Made by a program: the position numbers and the translations under genes. A stretch of DNA of 64,000 nucleotides from Komagataeibacter saccharivorans (GTDB lineage Bacteria > Pseudomonadota > Alphaproteobacteria > Acetobacterales > Acetobacteraceae), in NCBI RefSeq assembly GCF_003207825.1, contig NZ_NKTY01000006.1, forward strand, positions 1 through 64,000, given 5' to 3'. Below the pieces are notes generated by a model. It saw only the letters and a list, made by a program, of their open reading frames with translations. It was not told the origin of the DNA and searched no databases. Numbering within the stretch: the first letter of the stretch is position 1; every line of letters begins with the position of its first letter. Positions 44,299 through 61,681 of this stretch are shown piece after piece.

Positions 44299-45339
44299 AT
44301 GCGCAGTAAGAAGCTTGTCCATATCGTAACCTGTCATGCGGCGGGGGAGGTGGGAGATGTGATTGTGGGTGGTGTCGCCCCGCCACCCGGCGATACGTTA
44401 TGGGCACAGTCGCGCTTCATTGCGCAGGATGAGACACTGCGTAACTTCGTGCTGAACGAACCACGCGGCGGCGTGTTCCGTCATGTCAACCTGCTGGTCC
44501 CGCCACGCGATCCCCGTGCGCAGATGGGCTGGATCATCATGGAACCCGCTGACACGCCCCCCATGTCTGGTTCGAATTCGATCTGCGTTTCCACCGTCCT
44601 GCTGGAAACGGGCATCATACCGATGGTCGAACCCGAAACCCGCATGGCGCTGGAGGCACCGGGCGGAGTGATCGATGTGACCGCGACCTGCCGTGATGGC
44701 CGGGCCGAACGGATAAGCGTGCGCAATGTCCCGTCTTTTGCCGCCCGTCTGGATGTCCTGCTGGATGTGCCGGGACTGGGCACGCTGAAGGTCGATACCG
44801 CCTATGGTGGTGACAGCTTCGTCATCGTGGATGCTGCGGCACTGGGGCTGGATCTGGGGCCGGATTCAGCGCGGACGCTCGCGGAACTGGGCATGCGCAT
44901 TACCGCCGCTGCCAACCGGCAGTCTGGCTTTCATCATCCCGACAATCCCGACTGGACGCATATATCATTCTGCCTGTTCACCACGCCGGTTGAACTGTGC
45001 GATGGTGTCCGCACCGCCCCGCATGTGGTGGCGATCCGGCCGGGCAAGATTGATCGCTCACCTACCGGCACTGCATGTTCCGCCCGGATGGCGGTGCTGC
45101 ATGCGCGGGGTGAAATGGCGGTGGGAGACCGCTATGTCGCGCGTTCGATCATCGGTTCGGAATTCGACTGCCATATCGACGCCACCGCACGCGTGGGCGA
45201 TACCGATGCAATCATTCCCGTTATTTCAGGCAGCGCATGGATTACCGGCACGCAGCAGTTGATGCTGGACCCCACGGACCCGTATCCGGCAGGCTACCGG
45301 CTGAGCGATACATGGCCGGTCATGGCTCCGGATATGTAG
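44299..45339 (+). CDS. Proline racemase superfamily protein with Ser/Thr active-site pair
   Basis: A 346-residue protein of the proline racemase fold. The two catalytic positions, Cys in proline racemase and hydroxyproline epimerase, are here Ser90 (PPMSGSNS) and Thr256 ([14 protein letters not shown]). Known trans-3-hydroxyproline dehydratases have Cys/Thr, and some bifunctional enzymes Ser/Cys; a Ser/Thr pair points to a different reaction, probably elimination rather than racemisation. Other motifs ([30 protein letters not shown]-like end) are intact, so it is not a decayed copy. It lies at the edge of the amino-acid catabolic island and its 3' end overlaps the convergent DMT gene by 20 bases. 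Confidence 0.85.
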
Positions 45340-46345
45340 CATCGGTATCCAGAACCTGCTTCGCCTGTCCCTGTACGGTAAAGGCGATCAGCCCACACAG
45401 CACGGCGGCAATGCCCGTCCACGCCATTGCGCCGGGCAGCGGCGCGCCCAGAAACAGGGTATCACCGGCCAGTGCAAAGAACATTTCACTGGCCTGCGTG
45501 GCGTCAACGGCTGCAATGCGCATCGGGTCGGATGACATGTTCCGTGCGTAGATGAATAGTGTCATCCCACCGCATCCCGCCACCAGCGCGACCAGTGCGG
45601 TATCGAGTATCTGACCCGCGGTGGGTGGCGGCGGGGCGCTGCCCAGCACCACGGCGGCAAAGACCGGCAATGCCCCCAGCGTCAGTAGCAATACGCTTAC
45701 TGCCGGGTCGGCCAGAATATCGCCCCCTGGCAGGTTCCGGTCATGGCGCGCATGACTGAGCATCTGGTTGCCCAGCGGGTAGGTAAAGGCGGCTACGATA
45801 ACCGGCAGTATTCCCGCCACGACCTGCCCCATGCTGGCGCCATCCTGCACGCGCGTCGCATTGACGATCATGACGCCCGCAGCAATGACCGCAAGCGACA
45901 CGACCCCGCGTAGCGGCACCCGCGCGCCAAATGCCAGCATGACGATGGGGCTGGCCAGAATGGTCAACTGCCATGTGGTTGAAAGCATCCACGCAGGCGT
46001 ATGCGCCGCCGCGTAGCAGAAATAGGAATAGGTAACGCCATACCCGCTGCCGCCCGCCAGCAGCCACACGATGGGCCGCGCACGATAAAGGGCGAATACA
46101 CGGCTTATGAAGGCAGGGCCACGCCGCACCAGCAGCCATGCCGTCAGCAGGATGGCGGTATCAAGATAACGTAGCGCGGCACTCCATGCCCAGTGTCCAC
46201 CCTCCATGCTCATGAGACGGTTGAGGATGAAGGTCAGCGAAAACAGGCCCCCCGCCGCAATCCCCAGCATCATGACCCGCACAAGGGAGGGCGCGGTGGG
46301 GGCAGGAGCACACGCGGAAGGGAGGGGAACGGCGGTAGCAGGCAT
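45320..46345 (-). CDS. DMT-superfamily permease (multidrug-resistance efflux type)
   Basis: A 341-residue permease with about ten helices, of the EmrE/DMT type (PF13536-like). The start is ATG at 46345 ([20 protein letters not shown]), since the longer frame overlaps the aminotransferase gene. Membrane segments begin [20 protein letters not shown]. It is third in a leftward series GntR-aminotransferase-permease and may export a product or import the amino acid of this island. Confidence 0.85.
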
Positions 46346-46463
46346 GACGGCGCATGACTTTCGGGAAGGGGCCCGGACCGGGACGGGATGGCGCGGAATA
46401 TTAGTCGCGCCATCCCGTATGGTCATTACGATATCGGTGCAATACACCCATGCACCCGTAACG

Positions 46464-47672
46464 TTATTGCAGCGCCATGCAGGCTGTGTGCATCCGGGCG
46501 CAGCAGGCGGCCAGCACGTCCGTATCCACACCGAAGGCAATGCGCACATGTCCCGGTGCGCGAAAGGCTGAACCGGGCACCAGCGCCACGCGCGCGGCTT
46601 CCAGCATATAGGTTGCGAAATCGACATCGGTACGCAGCACCTGCCCCGATGGCGTGGTCCGGTTCAGGCAGCCGCTTACATCCGCGAAGACATAAAACGC
46701 CCCTTCCGGCAGCACGGCATCGAGACCGGGCGTGGTACGGACCATATCCATCACGATGGCGCGCCGCGTGCGCAGGATCGGCAGCCATTCATCCAGAAAG
46801 CCAACCCCGCCAGACAGTGCCGCACGGGCCGCATCCTGGCTTATGGAACTGGGGTTGGATGTGCTCTGGGACTGTAGCGTATCAAGTGCCGCGATCAGCC
46901 ATGACGGCCCCCCGGCATAACCCAGCCGCCACCCGGTCATGGAAAAGCTTTTGGATACGCCGTTAATGGTCAGGATACGTGAGGCCAGTGCCGGACGCAG
47001 CGCCGCCGGGGTGGCGAATGTCGTATCAAAAACAATGGCTTCATAAATATCGTCGGCCATGATCATCACGTTGTCATGCGGGGCAATGACATCGCACAGC
47101 GCACCCAGTTCCGCCGCCGGATAGACCGCGCCGGTGGGGTTGTTGGGGGAATTGAGGATGACCCAGCGGGTACGTGGCGTAATCGCCGCCGCCAGGTCTT
47201 CAGGCGCCAGTTTCCAGCTATTGCTGGCATGGCAGGGAACCAGAACCGGCGTACCGCCAGCAAGGCGGATCATGTCGGGATACGAGACCCAGCACGGTGT
47301 GGGGACAATCACCTCATCACCCGCGTCCAGCGTGGCGAGGAAAGCATTGAATATGATCTGTTTCGCCCCGCAGGATGCGATGACTTCATTCTGTGCGAAA
47401 TCCAGCCCGTTGCGCTGGCGAAAATACGCCCGGATCGCATCCTTCAGCCCGGTGGTGCCCGCCACGGCGGTATATTTGGTCAGGCCCGCACGGATGGCGG
47501 CGATGCCTGCTTCGGCAATGGGGGCGGGGGTCTCGAAATCCAGTTCACCTTCGCCCAGATTGTCAACCGTGACACCGGACGCCGCGAGGGTGCGTACCGT
47601 GTCGGAAATGGCGGCGGTGGGCGATGCGCCAATCATGCCCATGCGTGGGGCCAGCCTGCCGGAGGGTGCCAT
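46464..47672 (-). CDS. Class I/II pyridoxal-phosphate aminotransferase
   Basis: A 402-residue aminotransferase, paralogue of the gene at 10145-11347. Motifs: NSPNNPTGAVYP, DDIYEAIVFD, PLP lysine in NGVSKSFSMTGWRLG. The N-terminus has NLGEGELDF where typical AspC proteins have SLSSGEPDF. The chosen start, ATG 47672, has GGAAGG 12 bases upstream. In this island it probably transfers the amino group of the pathway's amino acid. Confidence 0.9.
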   Translation of the reverse strand: MAPSGRLAPRMGMIGASPTAAISDTVRTLAASGVTVDNLGEGELDFETPAPIAEAGIAAIRAGLTKYTAVAGTTGLKDAIRAYFRQRNGLDFAQNEVIASCGAKQIIFNAFLATLDAGDEVIVPTPCWVSYPDMIRLAGGTPVLVPCHASNSWKLAPEDLAAAITPRTRWVILNSPNNPTGAVYPAAELGALCDVIAPHDNVMIMADDIYEAIVFDTTFATPAALRPALASRILTINGVSKSFSMTGWRLGYAGGPSWLIAALDTLQSQSTSNPSSISQDAARAALSGGVGFLDEWLPILRTRRAIVMDMVRTTPGLDAVLPEGAFYVFADVSGCLNRTTPSGQVLRTDVDFATYMLEAARVALVPGSAFRAPGHVRIAFGVDTDVLAACCARMHTACMALQ

Positions 47673-47758
47673 GGCGTGGATATTCCTTCCATATCGGGGG
47701 ACGCGCCGCATCCTGATGCGCGGCGTGCTCCAATATTGTACAGAACATCACACAAAGA

Positions 47759-48748
47759 TCAATCTTGCGGGCGTTCCTTTCGGGCTCCGCGCGCCATGGC
47801 CTTTGCGGCCTCATAGGCACGGCCAAGATGCTCCGCCATCATCGTGGATGCGTCCTCGTTACGACCGTTGGAGAGTGCATCCATTATGCGTAGATGTTCA
47901 CGGCACCAGTCGCGTACACGGCGGCGATTGACATAGCCCCCGAACTCCAGCAGCCGTCGCAGCCGGTTATGCTGTTGCATGGTCTGTACAATGAAGGCGT
48001 TATGCGTGAAGCGTGCGATCATTTCATGAAACTGCGCATCGGTATCGAATATCTGCACCGCGCTGACCCGCGATATGTCGGGGTGCGATTCAAGGTAGAT
48101 ATGCTGGATACGGCAGTGTTCCAGCGCCCCCGGATCGATACGGAAATGTTCGCCCATCATGCTGGCAGGTTCGAACATGCGGCGGAATTCGTAGCTGTTC
48201 TGTAAGGCCACGCCGGTATCCAGCGTGGGCAGGAAGGTCCAGCCGCGTCCCTGATTGCGCCTGAGCAGCCCGTCATCCACCAGCCGCAGCAGCGTGCGCT
48301 GCAGCAGGGCGCGGTCCACGTCATAGCGGCGGCTTATGCTGCTTTGCGTAAAGGATTCCGGCAGGTCGCCGTTAAGGCGTTCCTGCACGATCTCGGAATA
48401 CAGGTCCTGTTCGGGGGTGGAAGGGACGGAAATGTCCACATGCTGGATCTCGCCCGCGTTGGCCCGCAGGAAATACCCCTGATTGCGACGCGCCTCGATA
48501 ATGCCGCGTTCGGCCAGCAGCGCCAGCGCCGTGCGGATGGGCGAACGCGAGATGCCAAGCAGATCCGCAAGCTGCTGTTCGCGCAGGTGATGTCCCGGCT
48601 CAAAGCGGCCTTCGCGGATGATGTCGAGGATCTGGTTGGCCAGAAGATAACGTTTTTGGGTCGGGCGGCGGACCATGCGTGTCCTGATGAAATCGTGCTG
48701 ATGGTGGGCGATCATACAAACTTCATCATCATATGTCGATCTGGCCAT
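47759..48748 (-). CDS. GntR-family regulator with two winged helices and FCD domain
   Basis: A 329-residue regulator. A GntR winged helix is at residues 33-95 (LLANQILDIIREGRFEPGHH, LADLLGISRSPIRTAL). A second winged-helix-like segment follows at about 115-170 (SISRRYDVDRALLQRTLLRL, DDGLLRRNQGRGWTF). The helical FCD effector domain with its His/Asp metal site is at 180-315. Normal FCD regulators are about 230 residues, so the second helix-turn-helix is additional. It stands between the aminotransferase and the divergent ABC importer and probably controls the whole island. Confidence 0.9.
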   Translation of the reverse strand: MARSTYDDEVCMIAHHQHDFIRTRMVRRPTQKRYLLANQILDIIREGRFEPGHHLREQQLADLLGISRSPIRTALALLAERGIIEARRNQGYFLRANAGEIQHVDISVPSTPEQDLYSEIVQERLNGDLPESFTQSSISRRYDVDRALLQRTLLRLVDDGLLRRNQGRGWTFLPTLDTGVALQNSYEFRRMFEPASMMGEHFRIDPGALEHCRIQHIYLESHPDISRVSAVQIFDTDAQFHEMIARFTHNAFIVQTMQQHNRLRRLLEFGGYVNRRRVRDWCREHLRIMDALSNGRNEDASTMMAEHLGRAYEAAKAMARGARKERPQD

Positions 48749-48878: not shown

Positions 48879-50435
48879 ATGATCCGCAACGCCATCCTTG
48901 CCGCGATATCCATACTGCCCCTGTGGCATGGCGCAGCGCGGGCGATGCCCACGCTGGCTACGCCGGGTGCATTGACTTCGGCCACGGCTGCGACCTTCAC
49001 GCCTTTTGAATTCGTGCGTGACGGTCAGGTGACGGGATTTGATATAGACCTTGCCGCCGCCATGGCCGCGCGGCTGCACCTGCGCCCGGTAACGGTGAAC
49101 ATGCAGTTTGACGGGCTGATCCCGGCACTACAGGGCGGCCGTGTCGATTTTATCAATTCGGCCATGTATATCAGTCCCGAACGTGCGCGGGCGGTCGATT
49201 TCGTGCCCTATCTTCAGGTTGCGAACGTGGTCATGGTCTCCGCCGCCCGGCCCGGTGGCATTACGGGCAATGATCTCAGCCTGTGTGGGCGGCAGGTCGC
49301 CGTTACCCTTGGCGGGATCGAGGATGACAACGCACGCGACGCCTCCGCCCGGTGTCGCGCGGCGGGACGGCCCGCGCTGGACGTGCTCAGTTTCCCCACG
49401 GGGCAGGATACGGCCATGAACCTGCGCGCCGGGCGGGTGGATGCGGCGTTCGATTCCGTTTACGGCGCGGTCACGCTCATGCACGACATGCCCGGTGTCT
49501 ACGCCGTGGCGGGACGCCCTTTCGGCACGGATGCGTGGATCGGCTTTGCCGTGCGCAGGGGCGATACGGCCATGCGCGATATGCTGGCCGGTGCCCTGCA
49601 CGCGGTGCAGGCGGATGGCACGTTCGATGCGCTGGTGCGCCGGTGGGACCTGCCGCCTGCGGAACAGGTCGATACCGCGGCACAGGGACAGGTGCGTCGT
49701 GGCGGCCTATGGCGGGGGCTGGCGGCGTGCTGGGGGTATTTCGCATCATGGCTGTTTTTTGAAGCAGCCCTCATGACATTGCTGGTTACCATCCTGTCGC
49801 TGGCGGCGGGCTGTGTGATCGGGCTGGGTGCCGCCCTTATGCAGTCGTCGCGCCTGCGCGTGGCGCAGGTAGTGGTGGCGCTGTATCTGTGGCTGTTCCG
49901 TGGCACGCCCGTGCTGTTGCAGATCGTGTTTGTCTATAACGTACTGCCGGGTTTCGGCCTGCGGCTTTCGGCGCTGCTGTCCGCCGTGCTGGCGCTTTCG
50001 CTGAACGAAGGGGCCTACATGGCCGAAATCATCCGCGCCGGACTGCGCGCCATCCGGCCCGGACAGCGCACGGCAGGGCTGGCGCTGGGCCTGACACCCG
50101 TGGGGGTCATGCGGCATATCGTCGCCCCGCAGGCATTCCGTGTGATCGTGCCCATGCTGGGTAATCAGGCGATCGGTATGCTCAAGACCAGTGCGCTGGT
50201 GTCCGTGATTGCGGTGGAAGACCTGCTGCTGGTCGCCAATCAGGCTGCATCCGCCAGCTTCCGGTATCTTGAGGCCCTGTCCGCCGCAGGTCTGTATTAT
50301 CTGGCGCTGACAACCCTGTTCATGCTGGGGCAGGCGGTCCTTGAACGCAGGTTGGACCCGGCGGTGCGGGCTACGGGCGGCACGCTGCTGGCACGTCTTG
50401 GCCGGATGGTGGGGAGTACTGGCGATGCCCGTTGA
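48879..50435 (+). CDS. Amino-acid ABC transporter, binding protein fused to permease
   Basis: A 518-residue fusion. After a signal peptide (MIRNAILAAISILPLWHGAA) comes a periplasmic binding domain of the GlnH/HisJ class (about residues 25-265: ATFTPFEFVRDGQVTGFDID, LIPALQGGRVDFINSAMYIS). Then comes a HisM/GlnP-type permease domain (285-505) with the EAA loop AGLRAIRPGQRTAGLALGLT. It imports a polar or cyclic amino acid with the ATPase encoded next. Fusions of this type keep one binding domain per permease chain. Confidence 0.93.
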   Translation: MIRNAILAAISILPLWHGAARAMPTLATPGALTSATAATFTPFEFVRDGQVTGFDIDLAAAMAARLHLRPVTVNMQFDGLIPALQGGRVDFINSAMYISPERARAVDFVPYLQVANVVMVSAARPGGITGNDLSLCGRQVAVTLGGIEDDNARDASARCRAAGRPALDVLSFPTGQDTAMNLRAGRVDAAFDSVYGAVTLMHDMPGVYAVAGRPFGTDAWIGFAVRRGDTAMRDMLAGALHAVQADGTFDALVRRWDLPPAEQVDTAAQGQVRRGGLWRGLAACWGYFASWLFFEAALMTLLVTILSLAAGCVIGLGAALMQSSRLRVAQVVVALYLWLFRGTPVLLQIVFVYNVLPGFGLRLSALLSAVLALSLNEGAYMAEIIRAGLRAIRPGQRTAGLALGLTPVGVMRHIVAPQAFRVIVPMLGNQAIGMLKTSALVSVIAVEDLLLVANQAASASFRYLEALSAAGLYYLALTTLFMLGQAVLERRLDPAVRATGGTLLARLGRMVGSTGDAR

Positions 50436-51186
50436 AACCCTGGCGTCCCCACAGACCCCGATCCTTGAAGTCAGCGGTATCTGCCGCAGGGTCGGTGATG
50501 CGGTGCTGCTTGATGACTGCGCCTTTACCCTGCCACGTGGGCAGACGGCGGTCCTGCTTGGCCCTTCGGGTGCGGGCAAGTCCACGCTGCTGCGCTGCAT
50601 CAACCTGCTGGCCCCGGCCGATAGCGGGCGCATCCTGTTCGACGGGCGTGACATCATGGCGCCGGGCGTGGATGCGCCGGGCGTGCGACGCGACATTGGC
50701 ATGGTGTTCCAGAATTTCGAGCTGTTCGATCATATGACCGTACTGGAAAACATCATGCTGGCGCCGATGCGCGTGCGCGGCCTGTCGCGTAATCAGGCGC
50801 GCGATCTTGCCATGGCCATGCTGGAAAAGGTGCACCTGCCGCACCGGGCCGATGCCCTGCCATCCGGTCTGTCGGGTGGCCAGCAGCAGCGCGCCGCGAT
50901 CGCGCGCGCGCTGGCGATGCAGCCGCGGCTGATGCTGTACGACGAACCGACTTCCGCGCTGGACCCGGAAATGACCGGCGAGGTGCTGACAGTCATGTCC
51001 GACCTTGCGGCGGAAGGCATGGCCAGCGTGGTCGTAACCCACGAAATGGGTTTTGCCCGCCGTGTCGCGGACCAGATCGTATTCATGCAGGCCGGACAGG
51101 TGGTGGAGGAAACACCTGGCGCCGACTTCTTCGCCGGACGGTGCAGCGTGCGGGCCCGGCGTTTTCTTGAACGGGTGATGGACTGA
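50425..51186 (+). CDS. Amino-acid ABC transporter ATP-binding protein
   Basis: A 253-residue ABC ATPase of the GlnQ/HisP class: Walker A GPSGAGKST, signature LSGGQQQRAAIARAL, Walker B MLYDEPTSALDPEM, switch His in VTHEMGFARRVAD. The start at ATG 50425 overlaps the preceding gene by 11 bases. It energises the fused importer. Confidence 0.94.
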   Translation: MPVETLASPQTPILEVSGICRRVGDAVLLDDCAFTLPRGQTAVLLGPSGAGKSTLLRCINLLAPADSGRILFDGRDIMAPGVDAPGVRRDIGMVFQNFELFDHMTVLENIMLAPMRVRGLSRNQARDLAMAMLEKVHLPHRADALPSGLSGGQQQRAAIARALAMQPRLMLYDEPTSALDPEMTGEVLTVMSDLAAEGMASVVVTHEMGFARRVADQIVFMQAGQVVEETPGADFFAGRCSVRARRFLERVMD

Positions 51187-51235: not shown

Positions 51236-52393
51236 ATGAAGCAGACCCCAGACCTGGACCGGATGAAGCGCGATCTTGCCGCGCTGATCGCCATGCCCAG
51301 CGAAAACCCGCCGGGGCATGAGGCGCAGGTGGCCGATTACGTTGCTGCCTGCCTGGAGCCGCTTGGTTTTGTCATCACGCGGGATGAATATGAGCCCGGT
51401 CGCGTCAATATCGAAGCCCGTCTGGACAACGGACCCGGTCCGGTATTCGCGCTCAATACCCATATGGATGTCGTCCCGGCGGGAACGGGCTGGCAGCACG
51501 ATCCCTTCACCATGACGGAGGAGGGCGGGCGGCTGTACGGTCGCGGGTCAAGTGACTGCAAGGGCTCGCTGGTCTGCATGATGGAAGCGGGCCGCATGCT
51601 CGCGGCGGACAGGGCGGAATGGCGTGGCACGCTGCTGCTTGTATTCGTGGCGGATGAGGAAGTGGCGAGCGTGGGCGCACGGCGTTATGTCACCACCGCC
51701 CCGCATATTGATTACGTTATCGTGGGCGAACCCACATCGAACACAACCTATGCCGCGCATAAGGGCAGCCTGCGCCCGCTGGTGCGCGTGCATGGCACAC
51801 CGGCCCATTCCGGCACGCCAGATCTGGGGGATAACGCGATCTATCGCGCCGCCGCGCTGGTGAACATGGTTGCTGCCGAACATGCGGATGTTGTCCGTCA
51901 TATCGACCATCCGCTGGTGGGGGCTGCAAGCCTTACGATCACGCGCGCAAGCGGTGGCCATGCGGATAATGTCGTGCCGCAGGGCTGCGACCTGTTGCTG
52001 GACCGCCGCATGGTTCCGGGCGAAGATGAAGAAGCCGTCAAGGCGCAGATTGCCAGCCTGCTGGCGCGCGCCAACGCACAGGCAGGCGTGCGGGCCGAAA
52101 TTGTTGAATTCCGTCCCACGACCGGCGGTGCGGTTGAAACACCGGCGGACCATGTGATCGTGCAGCAGGGGCTTGCGGTCTGTCGTGCCAATGGTGTCGC
52201 GGAGCCCGGTCCCTTCGGTTTTCAGGGCGCGTGCGATCTGGTGCATTTCTGTAATGCCGGGGCGGCTGGCGTAGTGATCGGGCCAGGTGTGCTGAGTGTG
52301 GCGCACAAGGCCGATGAATACGTGCCCGAAGCCGACCTGCCGGTGGCCGCCTGCATTTACCGCGATATGGTCATCGCCCTGATGCCCGTCTGA
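51236..52393 (+). CDS. M20-family metallo-hydrolase (ArgE/DapE deacylase type)
   Basis: A 385-residue two-zinc amidohydrolase. Metal and catalytic residues: NTHMDVVPAG (His, Asp), GRGSSDCKG (bridging Asp), FVADEEVASVG (Glu-Glu), VGEPTS, and the final His in SVAHKADEYVPE. The lid domain (about 175-285) has HGTPAHSGTPDLGDNAIY. It hydrolyses N-acyl amino acids, carbamoyl groups or dipeptides. It follows the importer, so a deacylation step after import is likely. Confidence 0.92.
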   Translation: MKQTPDLDRMKRDLAALIAMPSENPPGHEAQVADYVAACLEPLGFVITRDEYEPGRVNIEARLDNGPGPVFALNTHMDVVPAGTGWQHDPFTMTEEGGRLYGRGSSDCKGSLVCMMEAGRMLAADRAEWRGTLLLVFVADEEVASVGARRYVTTAPHIDYVIVGEPTSNTTYAAHKGSLRPLVRVHGTPAHSGTPDLGDNAIYRAAALVNMVAAEHADVVRHIDHPLVGAASLTITRASGGHADNVVPQGCDLLLDRRMVPGEDEEAVKAQIASLLARANAQAGVRAEIVEFRPTTGGAVETPADHVIVQQGLAVCRANGVAEPGPFGFQGACDLVHFCNAGAAGVVIGPGVLSVAHKADEYVPEADLPVAACIYRDMVIALMPV

Positions 52394-52398
52394 CTGTC

Positions 52399-53523
52399 AT
52401 GCGTGTCACGCTGCATCGCGCCATGCTGACATATGCCGATCCGGCGGCGTCAGTGCATACCGCGTCCTCTGGTCCGGTGGCCGGGCTGGATACGCTATAC
52501 CTGCTTGTGGATACGCCCCATGGTGCGCCCGTGGTGGGGGAGGTGCGGATAAACTGCGCCTATCTCAACGGCTATGAACCTGACACGATCATGCGCGCAG
52601 CAGTGGCCATGCTGCCCACGATCGACTGGGCGGCGGGTGCTGACGCACTGCTTGAAAGCGGGGCGGGGCAGGGGCAGATCGCACCCGTGCGCATGCTGCT
52701 TGATACCCTGCTGCATGACTGGGCGGCAAAGGCGCGCGGCGTGCCGGTGGCCCGCATGCTGGCCCCCGCCATGCCGGGCAATGCGAATGGGCCGGGAGGC
52801 GATGAAATCGCCCATGCGACAAACCAGACGCTGTTCCTCACCCCCATGGATGTCTTCCTTGCCCGTGCCGAAGCGTATGTAGCGCGCGGCTTTCGGGATC
52901 TGAAAGTGCGGCTGGGTGCTGATGCGGATGATGACATCACACGGATTGCCGCCCTGCGCGCGCGATTTGGCCGGGACGTGCATATCGCAGCCGATGCCAA
53001 TGGCGTGTGGGAGGAAGACCATGCGCGCCGCATGCTGGACCGGCTGGCGACATATGACCTGTCCTATGTCGAACAGCCCGTGGCGCCGGGCGACTGGGCC
53101 ATGCTGGACCGGGTCGCACGTACAAGTCCCGTTGCCATCATGCTGGATGAAAGCATGGCGTCACCAGCCGATGTGGAGCGGATCATCGATCTGCCCCGCA
53201 CGGTCATGGCGCATCTGAAACTGCTGAAATTCGGTGGTGTCGCGCCGGTCATGGCGGCGGTGCGACGCTTACGGGCGGAGCATGTCGGGTTCATGACCGG
53301 ACAGATGAACGAAGGGGGTATCGGCACGGCAGCGGTGCTGCATGTCGCCGCCGCCACCGCGCCGGACCATGCCGAACTCTATGGCGCGGATGGATTGTCC
53401 AATGATCCCGCAACGGGCGTGACCTATGGCGCGGGGATGGCCCGTGTATCGGCGCGGGCCGGATGGGGTGTGGATTTCAACCCCACGGGAACAACCCTTG
53501 TAACGGAGTACATGGTAGCATGA
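52399..53523 (+). CDS. Enolase-superfamily enzyme (mandelate racemase/muconate lactonising type)
   Basis: A 374-residue enolase-superfamily protein. The three metal ligands are Asp199 (HIAADANG), Glu225 (YVEQP) and Asp250 (IMLDES). The base motif on the second strand, usually Lys-x-Lys, reads Lys169-Val-Arg171, and the opposite Lys is at 277 (LKLLKFGG). This fits the MLE subgroup, whose members epimerise dipeptides, N-acyl amino acids or proline betaines or cyclise acids. The Arg in the second base position makes a simple 1,1-proton-transfer racemase less likely. Confidence 0.87.
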   Translation: MRVTLHRAMLTYADPAASVHTASSGPVAGLDTLYLLVDTPHGAPVVGEVRINCAYLNGYEPDTIMRAAVAMLPTIDWAAGADALLESGAGQGQIAPVRMLLDTLLHDWAAKARGVPVARMLAPAMPGNANGPGGDEIAHATNQTLFLTPMDVFLARAEAYVARGFRDLKVRLGADADDDITRIAALRARFGRDVHIAADANGVWEEDHARRMLDRLATYDLSYVEQPVAPGDWAMLDRVARTSPVAIMLDESMASPADVERIIDLPRTVMAHLKLLKFGGVAPVMAAVRRLRAEHVGFMTGQMNEGGIGTAAVLHVAAATAPDHAELYGADGLSNDPATGVTYGAGMARVSARAGWGVDFNPTGTTLVTEYMVA

Positions 53524-54695
53524 ACGCAATCGCAGGCGTGGTGCAGGGGCAGGAAGCAACCTTCCCCCGCGCCGAATATGATGGTCGCGTCGCACGGACG
53601 CGTGCGGCGATGGAAAAGGCTGGCATCGACGTGCTGGTCGTGACCGGGCCGGAAAACATCTATTACCTGACCGGTCAGCAGACACCGGGATATTATACCT
53701 TCCAGTGCCTTTTGCTGCCGGTAGACGGTGATCCGGTATTCATTATCCGGCAACTGGAATATTTCAATTTCATTGCCAATACCTACCAGTCAGATGCCCG
53801 CATCTATCAGGATGGGCAGAGCCCGATGAAGCTTCTGGCTGAGGTCATCCGTGAACGCGGCTACGCCACGCGGCGTATCGGCGTGGACAAGAATGGCTGG
53901 TTTCTCTCCCCTGCTGCGTACGAGGCCCTGTGCAGCCAGCTCGGCACGGTTCATGACGCAGCCGGTATTGTCGAAAGCCAGCGTGCCATCAAATCGCCGC
54001 TGGAGGTCGAAAAGATTGCCCGTGCCGCCACCTATGTCGATGCGGGCATGCGCGCGGGACTGGCCAGCGTGCGCGCCGGGGCGAGCGAGAACGACATGGT
54101 CGCGGCCATGATGGGATCGGCCATTGCCGCCGGGTCGGAATATGTTGGGATGGAGCCGCTTGTTTCCTCCGGTCCGCGCAGCGGGGTGCCGCACGGGACA
54201 TGGCGGCGGCGGATGATGGTGGCGGGTGATCCCGCTTTTCTGGAAATGGCGGCGTGTCATGACCGCTATCACGCAGCCCTCATGCGTTCGGCATGGATCG
54301 GCACGCCCCTGCCCGAAGCGGTGGACATGATGAAGGTCTGTCAGGATGCGCTCGCCGCCTCCCTCGATGCGATCCGTCCCGGTGTCACCTGTCAGGAACC
54401 GCACCGGGTCTGTCAGCGCATTATCGATGCCGCCGGCTATACCGACAGTTTCCGCAAGCGGCTGGGCTACAGCATCGGCATTTCCTTCGCACCCGACTGG
54501 GGCGAAGGCGCGATCCTGAGCCTGAATGAAGGTGAGACAACCGAACTGCGTCCCGGCATGACCTTCCACCTGCCGCCCGCGCTGCGGCTGTACGGGCGTT
54601 TTACCGTGGGCGTAAGCGAAAGCATTGTCGTGACCGAAACGGGCTGTCGCGTGCTGGGCACGATCGACCGCGCGCTGCATGCCGTCCCGGCATGA
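53520..54695 (+). CDS. M24-family protein, creatinase/ectoine-hydrolase-like
   Basis: A 391-residue pita-bread protein. The N-terminal creatinase-type domain (about 20-155) has VLVVTGPENIYYLTG. The C-terminal domain has LEMAACHDRYHAALMRS (241-257), LGYSIGISFAPDWGEG (315-330) and FHLPP (349-353). True Xaa-Pro peptidases have an Asp-Asp-His-Glu-Glu metal set; here the first Asp is part of LEM..CHDRY and the others are changed, just as in ectoine hydrolase (DoeA/EutD) and creatinase, which cleave C-N bonds of small cyclic or guanidino compounds. The start ATGA overlaps the enolase gene stop. Confidence 0.85.
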   Translation: MNAIAGVVQGQEATFPRAEYDGRVARTRAAMEKAGIDVLVVTGPENIYYLTGQQTPGYYTFQCLLLPVDGDPVFIIRQLEYFNFIANTYQSDARIYQDGQSPMKLLAEVIRERGYATRRIGVDKNGWFLSPAAYEALCSQLGTVHDAAGIVESQRAIKSPLEVEKIARAATYVDAGMRAGLASVRAGASENDMVAAMMGSAIAAGSEYVGMEPLVSSGPRSGVPHGTWRRRMMVAGDPAFLEMAACHDRYHAALMRSAWIGTPLPEAVDMMKVCQDALAASLDAIRPGVTCQEPHRVCQRIIDAAGYTDSFRKRLGYSIGISFAPDWGEGAILSLNEGETTELRPGMTFHLPPALRLYGRFTVGVSESIVVTETGCRVLGTIDRALHAVPA

Positions 54696-54739: not shown

Positions 54740-55660
54740 ATGAAAAATATTGATGAGAGCCGCGCCCGTCTGCACGGCATATTCAACATCACGGTAACAC
54801 CCTTCGGCGCGGACGGGTCCATTGATCTGGCCGGGATCGCGCGCAGCATCGAACGTGTGCTGGGGCTGGGTTACGATGGTGCGCTGATCGGCGGCACCTA
54901 TGGCGAATTTCCTGTCATGTCGCCGGATGAACGGGCGGGTCTGTTCCGGCACGTCATGGATGTTGTGGGCACGCGCGCGCCGGTCATGCTGTGCAGCGCG
55001 GATTCCGATCCGCGTGTCACGCGCGACCTGAGCATACTTGCCGGTGAACTGGGCGGCGTGCCGATGGTGATGGCGCCCTATGTGTCCGAAATCACCGATG
55101 CGCAGATACTCGCCTTTTTCCGCGAAATCGCGCCCCTGTCGCGCACCGGCACGATCATCTACAACGCGCCGGGCATCGGCATCACGCTTTCCCCCGCGCT
55201 GATCGAACAACTGGCGGAAGTCGAGGGGATTGTCGCACTGAAGCAGGGCGATCTGTCGGTCGGTGCGATTGACCGTATCGCCAATACGCTGTCGGGTCGG
55301 ATCAGGCTGTTCTGTGCATCCGACCTCGCTTTTCACGGGCCGATGATGAACGGCTTCGATGGTATCAGCACAACCAATTCATGCGCGCTGCCTGAACTGG
55401 TTCTGGCCAGCTTCCGTGCGATACAGGAAGGGCGCGCGCATGAATCGCGCGACCTGCACAGGCTGTGGTACAGCTACCGTGCCCTGGCGCGCGGCATGGG
55501 ACAGCCGCAGACGGTCAAGGCCGCGATGGCGCTGCGCGGGTTCGATGGTGGTTCCGTGCGTCGTCCGCTGCTGGATCTGGATGCGGGGCAGAAAGCTGCC
55601 GTGGCGGAAGTGATGCGCACGATCGCGGCAGACCCGCGCGCGGGCTTTACGCTGGCTTGA
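54740..55660 (+). CDS. Dihydrodipicolinate synthase/N-acetylneuraminate lyase family protein
   Basis: A 306-residue class I aldolase-fold protein. Schiff-base Lys168 (IVALKQG), Tyr141 in IIYNAPG and the GGTYGEF segment (residues 51-57, in place of the usual GTTGE) mark the family. Members with a changed GTTGE motif include the hydroxyproline-pathway deaminase and 2-keto-3-deoxy-acid lyases or dehydratases. In this island it probably acts on a keto or imino acid from the amino-acid substrate. Confidence 0.9.
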   Translation: MKNIDESRARLHGIFNITVTPFGADGSIDLAGIARSIERVLGLGYDGALIGGTYGEFPVMSPDERAGLFRHVMDVVGTRAPVMLCSADSDPRVTRDLSILAGELGGVPMVMAPYVSEITDAQILAFFREIAPLSRTGTIIYNAPGIGITLSPALIEQLAEVEGIVALKQGDLSVGAIDRIANTLSGRIRLFCASDLAFHGPMMNGFDGISTTNSCALPELVLASFRAIQEGRAHESRDLHRLWYSYRALARGMGQPQTVKAAMALRGFDGGSVRRPLLDLDAGQKAAVAEVMRTIAADPRAGFTLA

Positions 55661-55685: not shown

Positions 55686-56918
55686 ATGGCGCTGATTGTG
55701 GTGCGGCACGACACGGGACGACCGGGGCTGTATGGCGCGGCGGCGGGTATTGTTGCCGCGCAATGCGGCGCGCGGGTCATGCATGGGCCGGTAAGGCTGG
55801 ATGAGGTCCGTGATCCTGATGCCTGCCAGCATGTGGGTACCGGCCCCGACCGCGTAGCCAGTGGCCTGCTGCATGCCGAAAGGCTGACGGGGCGGCAGGT
55901 GGATGTCATTGCGACCCCCGCGCAGATTGTTGCGGCGGCAGCCACGGACGATGTCGTGGTGCCGCTGGACGGACTGCTGGATGCGGGTACGGGCTTCGTC
56001 ACCGATCTGTTGCGCCGTGGCGCAGCAGTCGGGCTGCGCAGGGTCAGCGCGTATCAGGATGGTGCCGTGCTGATGTGCCGGGATGATGGGGATGGAACCG
56101 TTGTCGCCCACGCGGTCCGCGATGGTTTTGGCAGGTTCCTGCCCGAAACGCATGATGCAGGGGGAGCGGAAGCCGGACGGGTCAGTGTGGTGCTGATCGG
56201 CAGGCCGGTCACGCATCACGAGGTCTATCCCGGTGCGCTGGCCGCATTGGGGGACGCGGCCGATGCGCTGGGGATCGGGGTGGATGTGACGTTTGTGGAC
56301 CCGGCAGCCGCTGACGATGATCCCTGTTACACAGCCCTGACGGATTTTGATGGCATGCTGCTGCCCGGTGGCGCGGCGGTTCCCGGTGCGCGCGGGCAGG
56401 TTCGGGCCGCCACCGTCGCGCTGGAAAGTGGCGTGCCCGTCATGGGCCAGTGTCTGGGCATGCAGACCATGGTAACCGCCTTTGCCCGGTCGCGCGCGGG
56501 GCTGCCCGATGCCACCATGGCGGAAATCGCGGGCGGGGCTGCGGGAGTACACAGTTTCATCCCCCATCCGCATTACCGTCTGGGCACGGGTAAACTTTCC
56601 CCGGTCCCGGATACGGTGCTGGGGGCAATGCTGGTGGATGGGGCGGCATGCGTTCGCAGCAACCACCGTTATGTCCTCAATACCCGGTTATTGCCGGGAC
56701 TTGCCGCCGCCGGACTGCGGGTCGGGGCATGGAATGATGATGCGGACGTGGTCGAAGGGATCGAGGTTCCTTCACACCCCTTCTACATGGGCATGCAGGG
56801 CCATCCTGAACTGTCCTCCATCCCCGGCAGTCCCCATCCCTTATGTGTTGCATTCCTGCGCGCGGCCCTGACGCGGCGCGACGGGCGTGCAGAAGCGGAA
56901 AACAGGAAAGAACGGTAG
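55686..56918 (+). CDS. Stand-alone class I glutamine amidotransferase, CTP-synthase-like, with novel N-terminal part
   Basis: A 410-residue protein. Residues 165-395 form a triad glutamine amidotransferase closest to the C-terminal domain of CTP synthase: FDGMLLPGG, nucleophile Cys256 in VMGQCLGMQ, SNHRYVLN like the PyrG HRYEVN motif, and His373/Glu375 in GMQGHPELSS. The CTP synthase amidoligase domain is absent. Residues 1-160 (VVRHDTGRPGLYGAAAG, VVVPLDGLLDAGTGFVTDLL) are a domain I do not recognise. It may deliver ammonia to, or hydrolyse a gamma-glutamyl or amide bond of, the island's substrate. Confidence 0.83.
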   Translation: MALIVVRHDTGRPGLYGAAAGIVAAQCGARVMHGPVRLDEVRDPDACQHVGTGPDRVASGLLHAERLTGRQVDVIATPAQIVAAAATDDVVVPLDGLLDAGTGFVTDLLRRGAAVGLRRVSAYQDGAVLMCRDDGDGTVVAHAVRDGFGRFLPETHDAGGAEAGRVSVVLIGRPVTHHEVYPGALAALGDAADALGIGVDVTFVDPAAADDDPCYTALTDFDGMLLPGGAAVPGARGQVRAATVALESGVPVMGQCLGMQTMVTAFARSRAGLPDATMAEIAGGAAGVHSFIPHPHYRLGTGKLSPVPDTVLGAMLVDGAACVRSNHRYVLNTRLLPGLAAAGLRVGAWNDDADVVEGIEVPSHPFYMGMQGHPELSSIPGSPHPLCVAFLRAALTRRDGRAEAENRKER

Positions 56919-56920
56919 AA

Positions 56921-57700
56921 ATGGATCTGGGTATTTCAGGGCGTCTGGCCCTTGTCATGGGCTCCAGTCAGGGACTGGGACTGGCCAGCGCACAGGCGCT
57001 GGCGCGTGAGGGCGCACGGGTTATCCTGACCGGGCGGGACCCGGCCCGGCTGGAAGCGGCATGCGCCAGCATCCGTGATGAAGGCGGCGAGGCGGATGCC
57101 CGTGTGGTCGATTTTTCGGATGCCGTGCAGTGTGCGGCGCTGATGGACGGGCTGGATCAGGCTGGCGTGGATATTCTGGTCGTCAATGGCGGGGGGCCGC
57201 CGCCCGGTCCGATCGCCGATGTCGCCCCCGAAGTATGGCGCGCGCAGTTCGACAGCATGGTGGGCGTGCCGATGCGCATGGCGCAGGCGGTCCTGCCGGG
57301 CATGCGGGCGCGTGGCTGGGGGCGGATCATCAATATCGTCTCATCCGGTGTGGTACAGCCCATCCCCAATCTGGGGATTTCCAATACATTGCGCATGGCC
57401 GTGATCGGCTGGGCCAAGACCCTGGCGGCGGAAGTGGCGGCACAGGGCATTACGGTCAATTCCGTGGTGCCGGGGCGTATCCATACCACCCGCGTTGACC
57501 AGCTTGACGCCGCCGCATCAAGGCGTACCGGTAAACCGGTCGAAGACATAGCAGCAGCCTCCCGCGCGACAATTCCCATGCAGCGTTATGGCCGACCGGA
57601 AGAATTTGCCGATGCCGTGGCCTTTCTGGCCAGCGCGCGGGCGTCGTACATGACCGGTGGAATGGTCCGTGTCGATGGCGGCATGATCCGCAGCACATAG
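56921..57700 (+). CDS. SDR-family protein with altered active site
   Basis: A 259-residue short-chain dehydrogenase fold, starting 3 bases after the amidotransferase gene. The cofactor motif is GSSQGLG. NNAG is replaced by NGGGPPPG, and the Tyr-x-x-x-Lys pair by Ser154-N-T-L-Arg158 (LGISNTLRMAVIGWAKTLA region), while the Ser of SSG remains. This pattern marks a known subfamily of FabG-like proteins whose chemistry is not clear. It is the last gene of the island, followed by a strong terminator. Confidence 0.88.
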   Translation: MDLGISGRLALVMGSSQGLGLASAQALAREGARVILTGRDPARLEAACASIRDEGGEADARVVDFSDAVQCAALMDGLDQAGVDILVVNGGGPPPGPIADVAPEVWRAQFDSMVGVPMRMAQAVLPGMRARGWGRIINIVSSGVVQPIPNLGISNTLRMAVIGWAKTLAAEVAAQGITVNSVVPGRIHTTRVDQLDAAASRRTGKPVEDIAAASRATIPMQRYGRPEEFADAVAFLASARASYMTGGMVRVDGGMIRST

Positions 57701-57761: not shown

Positions 57762-57869
57762 CGTCTGCGGGTCTTTTCAGGCTATCATGGCGGCCCGGAT
57801 ACCGGCGCGCATCGGGATCGGGCCAGCCGCGTTATGGCTGTTGATAAATAGCTGTGGAGAATGCCTGTC

Positions 57870-58823
57870 ATGGCCCGCTGGTCCTATCCGCGCCCGTCAC
57901 CGGGTGAAATCACGCCGCGTTCCGTATGGCTGGGACGACGGCAGATGCTTGCCGGTGCCGCCGTCACGGCAGCGGAATGGGGGGCAGGGCGTGCATCACA
58001 CGCCTATGGGGCCGGGCTGCATACTCGTCCCGGCCCGTTTCAGGCGACGGAAAAGCCCACGCCGCTGACTGATGTGACGCATTACAACAATTTTTATGAA
58101 TTCGGTCTGGATAAAAGCGATCCGGCAACCTATTCCGCCGCATTCCAGCCGCGTCCGTGGACACTTTCGGTAGAAGGTCTGGTCGCCCATCCCCGTGTAT
58201 GGGATCTGGACCAGTTGATCGCCAGCATGCCGATGGAGGAACGTCTCTACCGCATGCGCTGTGTCGAGGCATGGTCCATGGTCATACCATGGGACGGGTT
58301 TGCGTTGTCGGAACTGCTCCGGCAGGCGGAACCGCTGGGGAATGCCCGTTACGTGTCGTTTGAATCCGTTGTCAGACCGGACCAGATGCCCGGCCAGAGA
58401 TCGGGGCTGGATTCATTGTCGTGGCCCTATGTCGAAGGATTGCGACTGGATGAGGCGATGAACCCGCTGACCATCCTTGCCGTGGGGCTGTATGGGGAAA
58501 TGCTGCCAAACCAGAACGGTGCGCCCGTGCGGCTGGTCGTGCCATGGAAATACGGTTTCAAGGGGATCAAGTCGATTACCCGCATCCGTCTGGTGGCCGA
58601 CATGCCCCCGACGACATGGAACCGGATGAGCCCGGATGAATACGGCTTCTATGCCAATGTTAACCCCGAAGTCGATCATCCACGCTGGAGCCAGTCATCG
58701 GAACGGGTGATCGGGGCAGGGGGATTTTTTGGCGGGGGACGCAAGAAAACCCTCATGTTCAACGGGTATGGCGAACAGGTGGCCAGTATGTATGCCGGTA
58801 TGGACCTGCGGACCAGTTACTGA
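57870..58823 (+). CDS. msrP: Protein-methionine-sulfoxide reductase, catalytic subunit MsrP
   Basis: A 317-residue molybdopterin-dependent periplasmic reductase. A twin-arginine signal ([11 protein letters not shown]) is near residue 25. The Mo-ligating Cys is in [27 protein letters not shown] and the C-terminal [14 protein letters not shown] are typical. It repairs oxidised methionines in periplasmic proteins together with MsrQ. ATG 57870 has GGAG 10 bases upstream; ATG 57861 is too close to the same site. Confidence 0.93.
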
Positions 58824-58825
58824 CC

Positions 58826-59455
58826 ATGCCGCGTATTATCCGGTCGGGCCGTAATCATGTGGTCGTACCCTGGCGGGGAGAGGTGTGGATTATCGCACTG
58901 CTCGGCCTGCTGCCTGCCGCCGTGTATTTCTGGTACGGTGCGCAGGATCGGCTTGGTCCGGACCCGGTCAATGTATTTGAACGCTGGCTTGGGTTGTGGG
59001 CGGTGCGTTTTCTTGTCCTGACCCTGCTTGTAACGCCGCTGCGTGTGCTTGCGGGTTACAGCCTGCTGCGTTACCGGCGCATGCTGGGGCTGCTGGTTTT
59101 TGCGTATGCGTGCCTGCATGTGGGGACCTATGTCATACTGGACCAGCAGGGTAATCTGGGCGTGCTGGTGCAGGATATTACACACCGCCCCTTCCTTTTG
59201 CTCGGGTTTGTGGCCTTTGTTCTTCTGTCGCTGCTGGCGGCGACATCCACTAACTGGTCCATGCGCAGGCTGGGGCGACAGTGGGGCCGACTGCACCGCC
59301 TTGTGTATGGCGTCGCCCTGCTGGTGGCCGTGCATTTCCTTATGGCGTTCAAGACGTATAACGCCACCAGCATTGGTTATGCGGCAATACTGGGGATGCT
59401 GGTTTTATGGCGGGTGCCGGATTTGTGGCGTAAGCGCATGCGTCGTGTCCCATGA
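58826..59455 (+). CDS. msrQ: Haem-binding membrane subunit MsrQ
   Basis: A 209-residue inner-membrane protein with six helices. The haem ligands are His residues in YACLHVGTYVI and RLHRLVYGVALLVAVHFL. It passes electrons from the quinone pool or flavin reductase to MsrP. It starts 2 bases after msrP. Confidence 0.93.
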   Translation: MPRIIRSGRNHVVVPWRGEVWIIALLGLLPAAVYFWYGAQDRLGPDPVNVFERWLGLWAVRFLVLTLLVTPLRVLAGYSLLRYRRMLGLLVFAYACLHVGTYVILDQQGNLGVLVQDITHRPFLLLGFVAFVLLSLLAATSTNWSMRRLGRQWGRLHRLVYGVALLVAVHFLMAFKTYNATSIGYAAILGMLVLWRVPDLWRKRMRRVP

Positions 59456-59503: not shown

Positions 59504-60463
59504 TCAGGCCCGTTTTGCGCTGGGCGTGCCCGCAAGGTTGCGGATCTTGCGGTGCAGCGTCGAGCGGCTGATCCCCAGCATGCGCGCGGCCACGGCAACC
59601 TTGCCGCGCGCGCAGGCCAGCGCCGTATCAATGGCCATGATCTGTGCTTCGCGCAGCGGGGCGGCCGTCACGGGGCCTGTCGCATTGTCCAACAGGCACA
59701 TGTGGATTTCCTGCGCCGTCGCTATGCCCATATGCTGGCGCGCGGCATGGGTGGCTCCCACGACCCGGCGGTCCTGATCCAGCGCCAGCATCGGCGTGGA
59801 CGTCGCATCCGCCATGCCCAGCAGCATGATGGCATGGTTGCGGTAGACATCCATGAAACAGGCCTGTTCAATCTGGCGTGCAGCCTGTAGCAGGCTGCTG
59901 CTGACCAGTGCATTCATTGTGCTGTTTTCTGCCGTGACATGGAAAGCACTGGCGTTGAGGGCACCCGCCAGACGACCGGATGCGTCATAAACGGGCATGG
60001 CGATACAGGTCAGCCCGTGCAGCCCGCTGCGCCAGTGCTGGTTACGATGCACGCTTGTGCCGCGCTGTTCCGCAAGGCAGGTGCCAATGCCGTTCGTTCC
60101 CACGCTGCGTTCGTTCCATATGGCGCCCGGCCACAGGTGCCACCGGCGGCAGCCGCGCTGGATCGAACGTTCCGCGCGATGCATCACGACCACGCCCGAT
60201 GCGTTGGACAGCATGACGGTATAGCCCCCCGGTTCCAGCAGACCGTGCAGGCGGTCCATTTCAGGTCCGGCGAAATGCAGCAGTCGCCCCACCTGCTGGC
60301 TGCACTGGCGCAGTTCCGCGCCGGACAGCACATCGGGCAGGGTGGGGGAAGCCGGGTCAAGACCGTAGTCGTGCTGACATCGCCGCCACGAAGCGTCCAG
60401 CCCCGCATGCAGCGCGGCAGGAGCCGATGAAACGGGTGAGACGACGCGGGAACGGTTCAGCAT
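59504..60463 (-). CDS. AcoR-like regulator (GAF plus Fis-type helix-turn-helix, no AAA+ domain)
   Basis: A 319-residue regulator. N-terminal motif ASWRRCQHDYGLDP and the GAF domain (about 60-190: EPGGYTVMLSNASGVV, WNERSVGTNGIGTCLAEQ) match AcoR, the acetoin-operon activator. The end is a Fis-type helix-turn-helix (VAVAARMLGISRSTLHRKIR). The central AAA+ sigma-54-activator domain is missing (no GAFTGA, no Walker motifs), so it cannot drive sigma-54 transcription and must work with sigma-70. The start is ATG 60463; the longer frame is out of the conserved region. It is divergent from acoA. Confidence 0.88.
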   Translation of the reverse strand: MLNRSRVVSPVSSAPAALHAGLDASWRRCQHDYGLDPASPTLPDVLSGAELRQCSQQVGRLLHFAGPEMDRLHGLLEPGGYTVMLSNASGVVVMHRAERSIQRGCRRWHLWPGAIWNERSVGTNGIGTCLAEQRGTSVHRNQHWRSGLHGLTCIAMPVYDASGRLAGALNASAFHVTAENSTMNALVSSSLLQAARQIEQACFMDVYRNHAIMLLGMADATSTPMLALDQDRRVVGATHAARQHMGIATAQEIHMCLLDNATGPVTAAPLREAQIMAIDTALACARGKVAVAARMLGISRSTLHRKIRNLAGTPSAKRA

Positions 60464-60520
60464 GCGGTTTCTTTGCGCCAGAACGATGTGGTTGAGGTGG
60501 CGGCTAAACACGCGGCGAGG

Positions 60521-60538
60521 TGTCGCGGTTTCGCGACA
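60521..60538. promoter_or_regulatory. 18-bp palindrome, likely AcoR-type operator
   Basis: TGTCGCGGTTTCGCGACA has 7-base perfect arms around GTTT. It lies 58 bases upstream of the regulator gene and 146 bases upstream of acoA, the expected place for the upstream activating site of an acetoin operon. Confidence 0.6.
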
Positions 60539-60683
60539 CTTTGGACCATGCCCGTCACATGGGTGTGAAACGGGGGCGGGTATCCTTGCCCGTGCGTCGT
60601 GTCCGGGTGTGTGCTGGCGTCGTGCCCGCCCGCATGTGTGCGTTCCTGTCTGGCGGGTCCTGAAAAGAACAAGGGAAATACCC

Positions 60684-61649: not shown

Positions 61650-61681
61650 TCCGGTCCCTCCAGCTACGAAAGAAACACATA

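Follow-up and report, generated by a model that had tools for sequence, protein, structure and literature searches.

Why would an operon for import and degradation encode a glutaminase of the kind found in CTP synthase (PyrG), and what would such an enzyme do there? The question is raised by a gene in a 64,000-nucleotide stretch of Komagataeibacter saccharivorans DNA (contig NZ_NKTY01000006.1), which we refer to as the window. The gene is an open reading frame on the forward strand (55686..56918, ATG to TAG) that fuses an N-terminal domain to a PyrG-type glutaminase in a protein of 410 amino acids. It lies 25 nt after the end of a gene for a dihydrodipicolinate synthase (DHDPS)-type enzyme, and its stop codon is followed after 2 nt by the start of an SDR oxidoreductase gene.

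A PyrG-type glutaminase fused to an uncatalogued domain

Residues 164-395 (56175..56870, forward strand) make up a class-I glutamine amidotransferase (GATase) domain, as judged from profile and PDB matches. Pfam model PF00117 matched residues 197-390 (70 bits against a gathering score of 22.8; E 2.7e-19), and CTP synthetase 1vco matched residues 166-398 with an E value of 1.9e-28. The top curated models were two for CTP synthase: NF003792 scored 127 bits (cut-off 308) and TIGR00337 scored 117.5 bits (cut-off 462.75), both far below threshold, and their alignments cover the PyrG C-terminus only. The amidoligase family PF06418 was missing from the Pfam matches of the 410-residue protein (E up to 1) and from those listed for 19 N-termini of its family. 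The sole PF06418 match in the genome at E up to 1e-20 sits on another contig (C33), so that the true PyrG of this genome is encoded elsewhere than at 55686-56918. The sequence evidence thus describes a PyrG-like class-I GATase that lacks a recognisable synthetase half and carries an uncatalogued N-terminal domain, in line with the initial annotation, which had read the gene as a PyrG-type glutaminase without the synthetase. Some family members are annotated as CTP synthase, an example being ATU_RS26150 of Agrobacterium fabrum C58 (NC_003064.2); this label is misleading because those members have no recognisable synthetase domain. Comparison with the homologue in a congener (65% identity) gave a dN/dS of about 0.25, with values of 0.29 and 0.23 for the two halves, and both halves of the protein are under purifying selection.

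The N-terminal domain (residues 1-163; 55686..56174, forward strand) had been described as matching no known domain, and wider searches agreed. Searches of Pfam, NCBIfam, PHROGs and PADLOC with residues 1-160 found nothing up to an E value of 1; PADLOC matched no part of the 410-residue protein, which gives no sign of a role in defence. The 19 family N-termini gave nothing credible against Pfam (best E 0.048, each listed family appearing in only one or two members), nor did a profile built from them against the PDB (best E 0.2); two members, L090 and L106, were excluded from the N-terminal profiles and from the class A identity means given below. An AlphaFold2 (AF2) model of residues 1-170, made from three sequences, is an alpha/beta structure with a pLDDT of 68.5 and a pTM of 0.74; the corresponding full-length model had a pLDDT of 52 and was discarded. 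The best structural matches by VIA-align were FtsY (6cy5; Z 7.9, rmsd 4.3, 132 residues aligned) and the dethiobiotin synthetase BioD (3fgn; Z 7.8, rmsd 3.3, 128 aligned), and diphthine synthases reached Z 6.6. Since Z stays below 8, these matches may reflect a common arrangement only. A Foldseek search with the model had no match with an E value of 0.001 or less; RadA/RecA-type and ThiF proteins headed its list. CTP synthase was absent from the best 50 VIA-align matches listed, which is informative neither way.

The likeness to BioD and to FtsY/Ffh is one of predicted alpha/beta topology, and for BioD and FtsY it spans nearly the whole N-terminal model. BioD, the SRP GTPases and the PyrG amidoligase all belong to the P-loop NTPase class, and inspection by eye found no P-loop in the N-terminal domain, which we accordingly describe as modelling like a P-loop-NTPase-type fold that lacks the P-loop. 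We also noted by eye a collinearity with the PyrG amidoligase, in which FVxxx...G..AA.L... is followed by QH and then by ER. The hhalign score between the two N-termini was equalled by 8 of 400 column shuffles in global mode and 26 of 400 in local mode. Of 245 real decoy windows, 11 did as well globally and 26 locally, and windows from SDR proteins had the top local scores, above PyrG. In a profile search with the family N-terminus (hmmsearch), the best PyrG ranked about 300th, within background. Neither the shuffles, the decoys nor the search rank is significant, and descent from the PyrG amidoligase, which would make the N-terminal part the degraded known domain that the initial annotation had considered, is no more than possible.

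A conserved catalytic core and a largely dismantled GTP switch

Full-length relatives with 32-43% identity are found in Agrobacterium, Rhizobium, Shinella, Neorhizobium and Pantoea. Of 246 genomes from one family, 21 carry a total of 23 copies; we take this family to be the Enterobacteriaceae, broadly defined, on two grounds: identity to the Pantoea operon genes reaches about 84%, and its PyrG carries the E. coli numbering. Closer to home the gene is patchy. Counting the window's own genome each time, matches occur in 2 of 19 genomes of the genus, in 2 of 385 of the class (the second being one other genome) and in 3 of 398 of the phylum, where the others are one class B copy (see below) and one match judged to be chance. 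A weak match in genome G770 (L062) was dropped as chance because it contains a stop and runs antisense to a longer open reading frame. Nine further weak matches had E values of 0.001-0.01, and five of them, in genomes of the genus, were lost once a profile was used. A scan of viral contigs found no relative, and literature searches found no publication on this glutaminase family.

We extracted 33 proteins from 34 loci, one (L063) being cut by a contig end, and dropped L017, whose frame is broken and which is outside the alignments and the 23-member counts. The 32 intact members, including the Komagataeibacter protein, share the N-terminal domain and fall into two classes: 23 class A proteins, which have a complete triad and lie in the operon described below, and nine class B proteins (L061, L087, L091, L092, L094, L097, L100, L103 and L104), which lack the cysteine and lie outside it. 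In class B, the position of the PyrG nucleophile C379 is occupied by N (seven members) or G (two), E403 is replaced by G in seven and gapped in two, H469 is Q in all nine, and H515 is kept in only two. The class B gene of L061 lies a few kilobases from genes that, by eye, resemble a ureide-degradation cluster. Residues 1-75 of class B have a mean pairwise identity of 81%, compared with 59% for its GATase part, whereas the order is reversed in class A (42% and 49%, respectively). That this segment outconserves the GATase part in class B suggests an independent function for the N-terminal domain.

In phylogenetic trees, PyrG, class B and NF004836 (CTP synthase C-terminal region-related (seleno)protein) each formed one clade, with support from 100/99 to 100/100 and 100/100 for PyrG, and a long branch parted classes A and B from PyrG. 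Class A was only weakly one clade, with support of 51/37 in the tree that included NF004836 (nine members, together with 11 of the 23 PyrG sequences) and with two changes in the tree without it, so class B may have arisen inside class A. The branching order is unsure because the tree with NF004836 was midpoint-rooted with one very distant outgroup. NF004836 resembles our family in being a free-standing PyrG-type GATase, and is reportedly named as a selenoprotein in one publication (PMC13188914). It nevertheless grouped with PyrG (98/96) and not with classes A and B; its model has 228 positions and lacks the N-terminal domain of these proteins, it gave the 410-residue protein 80 bits against a cut-off of 260, and the nine of its members that we read have, by eye, Q (V in one) at the position of PyrG H515.

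To compare residues, we aligned the 23 triad-bearing operonic proteins of class A, the Komagataeibacter one included, with 23 PyrG sequences and used E. coli numbering. The triad that had been assigned from the window as Cys256, His373 and Glu375 (codons at 56451..56453 for Cys256 and 56802..56810 for His373-Pro374-Glu375, forward strand) corresponds to PyrG C379, H515 and E517 and is invariant in all 23 operonic members, as are G351, G352, E403, R440, G442, H469 and R470. Other positions of PyrG have been lost from class A: F353 is A or S, M439 of the GG(T/S)MRLG motif is H or Y, R468 is N and positions 425-431, including R429 (L13), are gapped, in each case in 23 of 23 proteins. G437 is kept in two, R356 in one and G357 in one, the Komagataeibacter protein. 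The distance from C379 to E403 is 27 in PyrG and class A alike. For H469 and the QxH motif it is 44 (PyrG) and 42-45 (class A), and for E403 and H469 it is 65 (PyrG) and 33-55 (class A); these figures derive from a pattern fitting 21 of the 23 class A proteins and one of six PyrG proteins tried.

For PyrG, one study (PMC9138612) assigns GTP roles to L11 (R356), to L13 (R429), to the GG(TS)(ML)RLG motif and to R468/R470, and also links R440 and R470 to GTP. Another (PMC8325340) describes a GTP-related role for F373 of fly CTP synthase. We take F353 to be its counterpart. The retention of the catalytic residues together with the loss of most GTP elements suggests an uncoupled glutaminase-type enzyme that may have no need of GTP. 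As R440 and R470 are GTP-linked in PyrG, their presence in class A is no proof that a gamma-glutamyl group is recognised, and it argues against complete erasure of the GTP site; E403, R440 and R470 are residues that any PyrG-type glutaminase would keep. The family therefore has in common with PyrG the triad, the oxyanion glycine pair, E403, R440, H469-R470, the spacing from cysteine to E403 and the C-terminal position of the GATase domain. It differs in having about 163 N-terminal residues, with no amidoligase recognised by sequence, where PyrG has an amidoligase of about 287, and in lacking the GTP-linked L13, F353 and R468 and, nearly always, R356.

A catabolic operon and its sister cluster

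In the window, the operon is headed by a divergent GntR/FCD regulator gene (47759..48748, reverse strand), of which homologues are found at the operon in relatives. Beyond it on the reverse strand lie a class I/II PLP aminotransferase (46464..47711), whose homologues adjoin the GATase gene in relatives, and beside this an EmrE-type (PF13536) transporter (45320..46627), of which the membership in the island is uncertain. The remaining genes, all on the forward strand, were assigned from profiles and homologues and encode a fused amino-acid ABC binding protein and permease (48879..50435), a GlnQ/EhuA-like ABC ATPase (50428..51186, start inferred), an M20 deacylase of the ArgE/DapE family (51236..52393), an MR/MLE enzyme of the enolase superfamily (52399..53523), an M24 enzyme whose closest solved relative is the ectoine hydrolase DoeA (53517..54695, start taken from homologues) and the DHDPS-family aldolase/dehydratase (54740..55660). 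After the GATase gene comes the SDR oxidoreductase (56921..57700, start inferred), assigned from profiles. The binding protein and permease form one open reading frame here and two genes in A. fabrum C58 and Pantoea. After the operon, 57861-59455 encodes two proteins that resemble an MsrP/MsrQ pair, namely a molybdopterin oxidoreductase (PF00174) and a membrane protein similar to ferric reductases (PF01794). The region 59504-62710 is reminiscent of an acetoin dehydrogenase locus, with a gene for a Fis-type regulator (PF02954) next to a pair for dehydrogenase E1 (PF00676 and PF02779/PF02780).

The same company recurs around class A genes in relatives: a GntR regulator, an amino-acid ABC importer, M20, MR/MLE and a DoeA-like M24 enzyme, together with either DHDPS and the aminotransferase or a VOC protein, a reductase and a D-transaminase. 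Across 25 operon loci, M24 was found in all, M20 and MR/MLE in 24 (the exception, L088, is truncated in the sequence fetched, with its MR/MLE gene found just outside) and the GATase in 24 (the exception, L063, runs off its contig). Nineteen loci have DHDPS and the class I/II aminotransferase; the other six, L063 and five rhizobial loci, have VOC, a GhrA-like reductase and D-transaminase instead. The absence of DHDPS from the five rhizobial loci indicates that the downstream path is not uniform. Among the 246 genomes, the operon MR/MLE (E up to 1e-80) occurs in 14, and class A GATase occurs in exactly the same 14; the other seven GATase-bearing genomes have class B only, and two genomes (G908 and G1007) carry A and B together. 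Among plasmid records, 44 matched the M24 enzyme, and the 30 that did so at 60% identity or more are, by eye, the accessions of the best 30 of 81 GATase matches, of which 40 were listed.

These neighbours across relatives agree with the placement of the gene in a catabolic operon by the initial annotation, and the co-conservation of the GATase with the ABC/M20/MR-MLE/M24 core refutes the possibility, raised there, that the gene is not co-conserved with the island. The co-occurrence holds for this core; it is less complete for the two genes named in the initial annotation, DHDPS (19 of 25 loci) and SDR, which gave the top match close to the cluster at 15 of the 25 loci (with fetched stretches of differing length).

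A second kind of cluster bears on the bond that is cut. Fourteen plasmid records carry an M24 relative at 50-54% identity, and we counted genes in 19 kb fetched around each (loci L122-L125 and L137-L146). All 14 of these sister clusters contain the 5-oxoprolinase PxpABC, and none contains a GATase, M20 or MR/MLE of the operon kind; conversely, the stretches fetched for the 25 GATase loci show no PxpABC. Two Methylobacterium records have, about 7 kb off, an annotated type 1 glutamine amidotransferase that tblastn places outside the GATase family. The sister clusters also contain a VOC protein (12 of 14) that is 80-92% identical to that of A. fabrum C58, a D-transaminase (11 of 14; 58-62% identity) and a Zn-dependent hydrolase of the hydantoinase/carbamoylase type (11 of 14). 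PxpABC, which acts on the gamma-amide in a lactam, is ATP-dependent and unrelated to the GATase; what the two systems have in common is a comparable cluster with homologous M24, VOC and D-transaminase genes.

Because PxpABC stands in the sister cluster in place of the GATase, M20 and MR/MLE, the bond cut in the operon may also be a gamma-amide. In this model the GATase would hydrolyse an open-chain gamma-amide, and PxpABC a related compound in its lactam form. In Rhizobium lusitanum (L147) the two clusters lie end to end, and only one VOC and one D-transaminase gene were detected in 35.6 kb, so both modules seem to feed the same later steps. The exchange is one of whole modules, PxpABC and mostly the Zn-dependent hydrolase for GATase, M20 and MR/MLE, and the GATase need not be the counterpart of PxpABC; in R. 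lusitanum both modules are present.

Proposed role of the enzyme and alternatives

The gene family has lost the nucleotide-making half of PyrG and much of its switch, and it travels with one degradative gene set, which suggests that the enzyme probably removes an amide from a glutamine-like nutrient. On balance, we favour a stand-alone, GTP-independent class-I amidohydrolase that acts on a glutamine-like or gamma-glutamyl intermediate of an import-and-degrade operon and is not an ammonia donor. An origin from the glutaminase half of CTP synthase, or a sister relationship to it, would be part of this explanation. Computed support comes from the triad, the oxyanion glycines, the loss of most of the GTP switch, the purifying selection on the gene, its co-occurrence with the operon and the exchange of modules with 5-oxoprolinase; from these we infer the free gamma-amide substrate, the independence from GTP, the unchannelled ammonia, the order of the enzymes and the role of the N-terminal domain. 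In the proposed mechanism, the M24, M20 and MR/MLE enzymes would generate the intermediate, and Cys256, activated by His373 and Glu375, would attack its gamma-carboxamide. The acyl-enzyme would then be hydrolysed and ammonia, or an amine, simply released, and the glutamate-like product would pass to the operon aminotransferase, and from there to the enzyme of DHDPS type or to a 2-hydroxyacid reductase. For the N-terminal domain, which has no recognisable nucleotide-binding motif, the most likely role would be to cap or position the substrate. Hydrolysis of a gamma-glutamyl or glutamine-like compound was one of two functions offered by the initial annotation and fits these data best, with plain glutamine and an analogue of it looking alike as substrates at the level of sequence.

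A more elaborate history, which we regard as doubtful, would have a whole CTP synthase recycled. Its amidoligase would have shrunk to a P-loop-less gate for the glutaminase and its GTP switch would have been dismantled, leaving an amidohydrolase for a modified glutamine in a catabolic pathway not yet described; a lactam branch would run through 5-oxoprolinase, and a side lineage would have lost the cysteine but kept the shrunken domain for another job.

A catabolic glutaminase or gamma-glutamyl hydrolase like PuuD, which would free the gamma-glutamyl group from an imported compound, shares with our protein the form of a free-standing class-I GATase-type hydrolase, and PuuD is likewise encoded in a catabolic operon. 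The Peptidase_C26 model, the family of PuuD, matches the 410-residue protein with 44.4 bits (cut-off 20.5), the annotation of several relatives reads gamma-glutamyl-gamma-aminobutyrate hydrolase family protein, and M20 and M24 hydrolases are among the neighbours. We consider a PuuD-like role unlikely, however, because the PuuD equivalog model gives only 19.9 bits against 266, the N-terminus is a different one and the closest sequences are those of PyrG. The Puu pathway also includes a ligase that loads glutamate, and no such partner was found among the island genes scanned.

Class-I GATases usually donate ammonia to a partner, and we judge it less likely still that this one hydrolyses ordinary glutamine and passes ammonia, within a complex, to a pathway enzyme docked by the N-terminal domain. 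That domain does occupy the place of the ammonia-accepting domain of PyrG, and residues 1-75 are conserved in class B even with the GATase cysteine lost. Against such a donor, no ATP-using ligase or synthetase was found among the island genes scanned (Pfam, NCBIfam) or annotated inside the operon loci of four relatives, most of the GTP coupling elements are gone, and a catabolic operon would have little to gain from glutamine-derived ammonia. The other function initially offered, the feeding of ammonia to a neighbour, is thus the less supported of the two; these points do not speak against transfer to an unlinked enzyme. Finally, the loss of the cysteine in nine relatives, and of the histidine as well in seven of them, shows that the lineage does make pseudoenzymes, but a decayed CTP synthase acting as a pseudoenzyme or regulator is very improbable for the operonic proteins, in which the triad is kept throughout, both halves are under purifying selection and the GATase is linked to the operon.

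The glutaminase of PyrG is noted for being controlled both by GTP and by the synthetase half. An operon-bound relative that has the core but neither the synthetase nor most of the switch would offer a ready comparison for how such coupling arose or is lost, and its gene is a marker, in rhizobia, Pantoea and other bacteria, for an import-and-degrade operon that is as yet uncharacterised.
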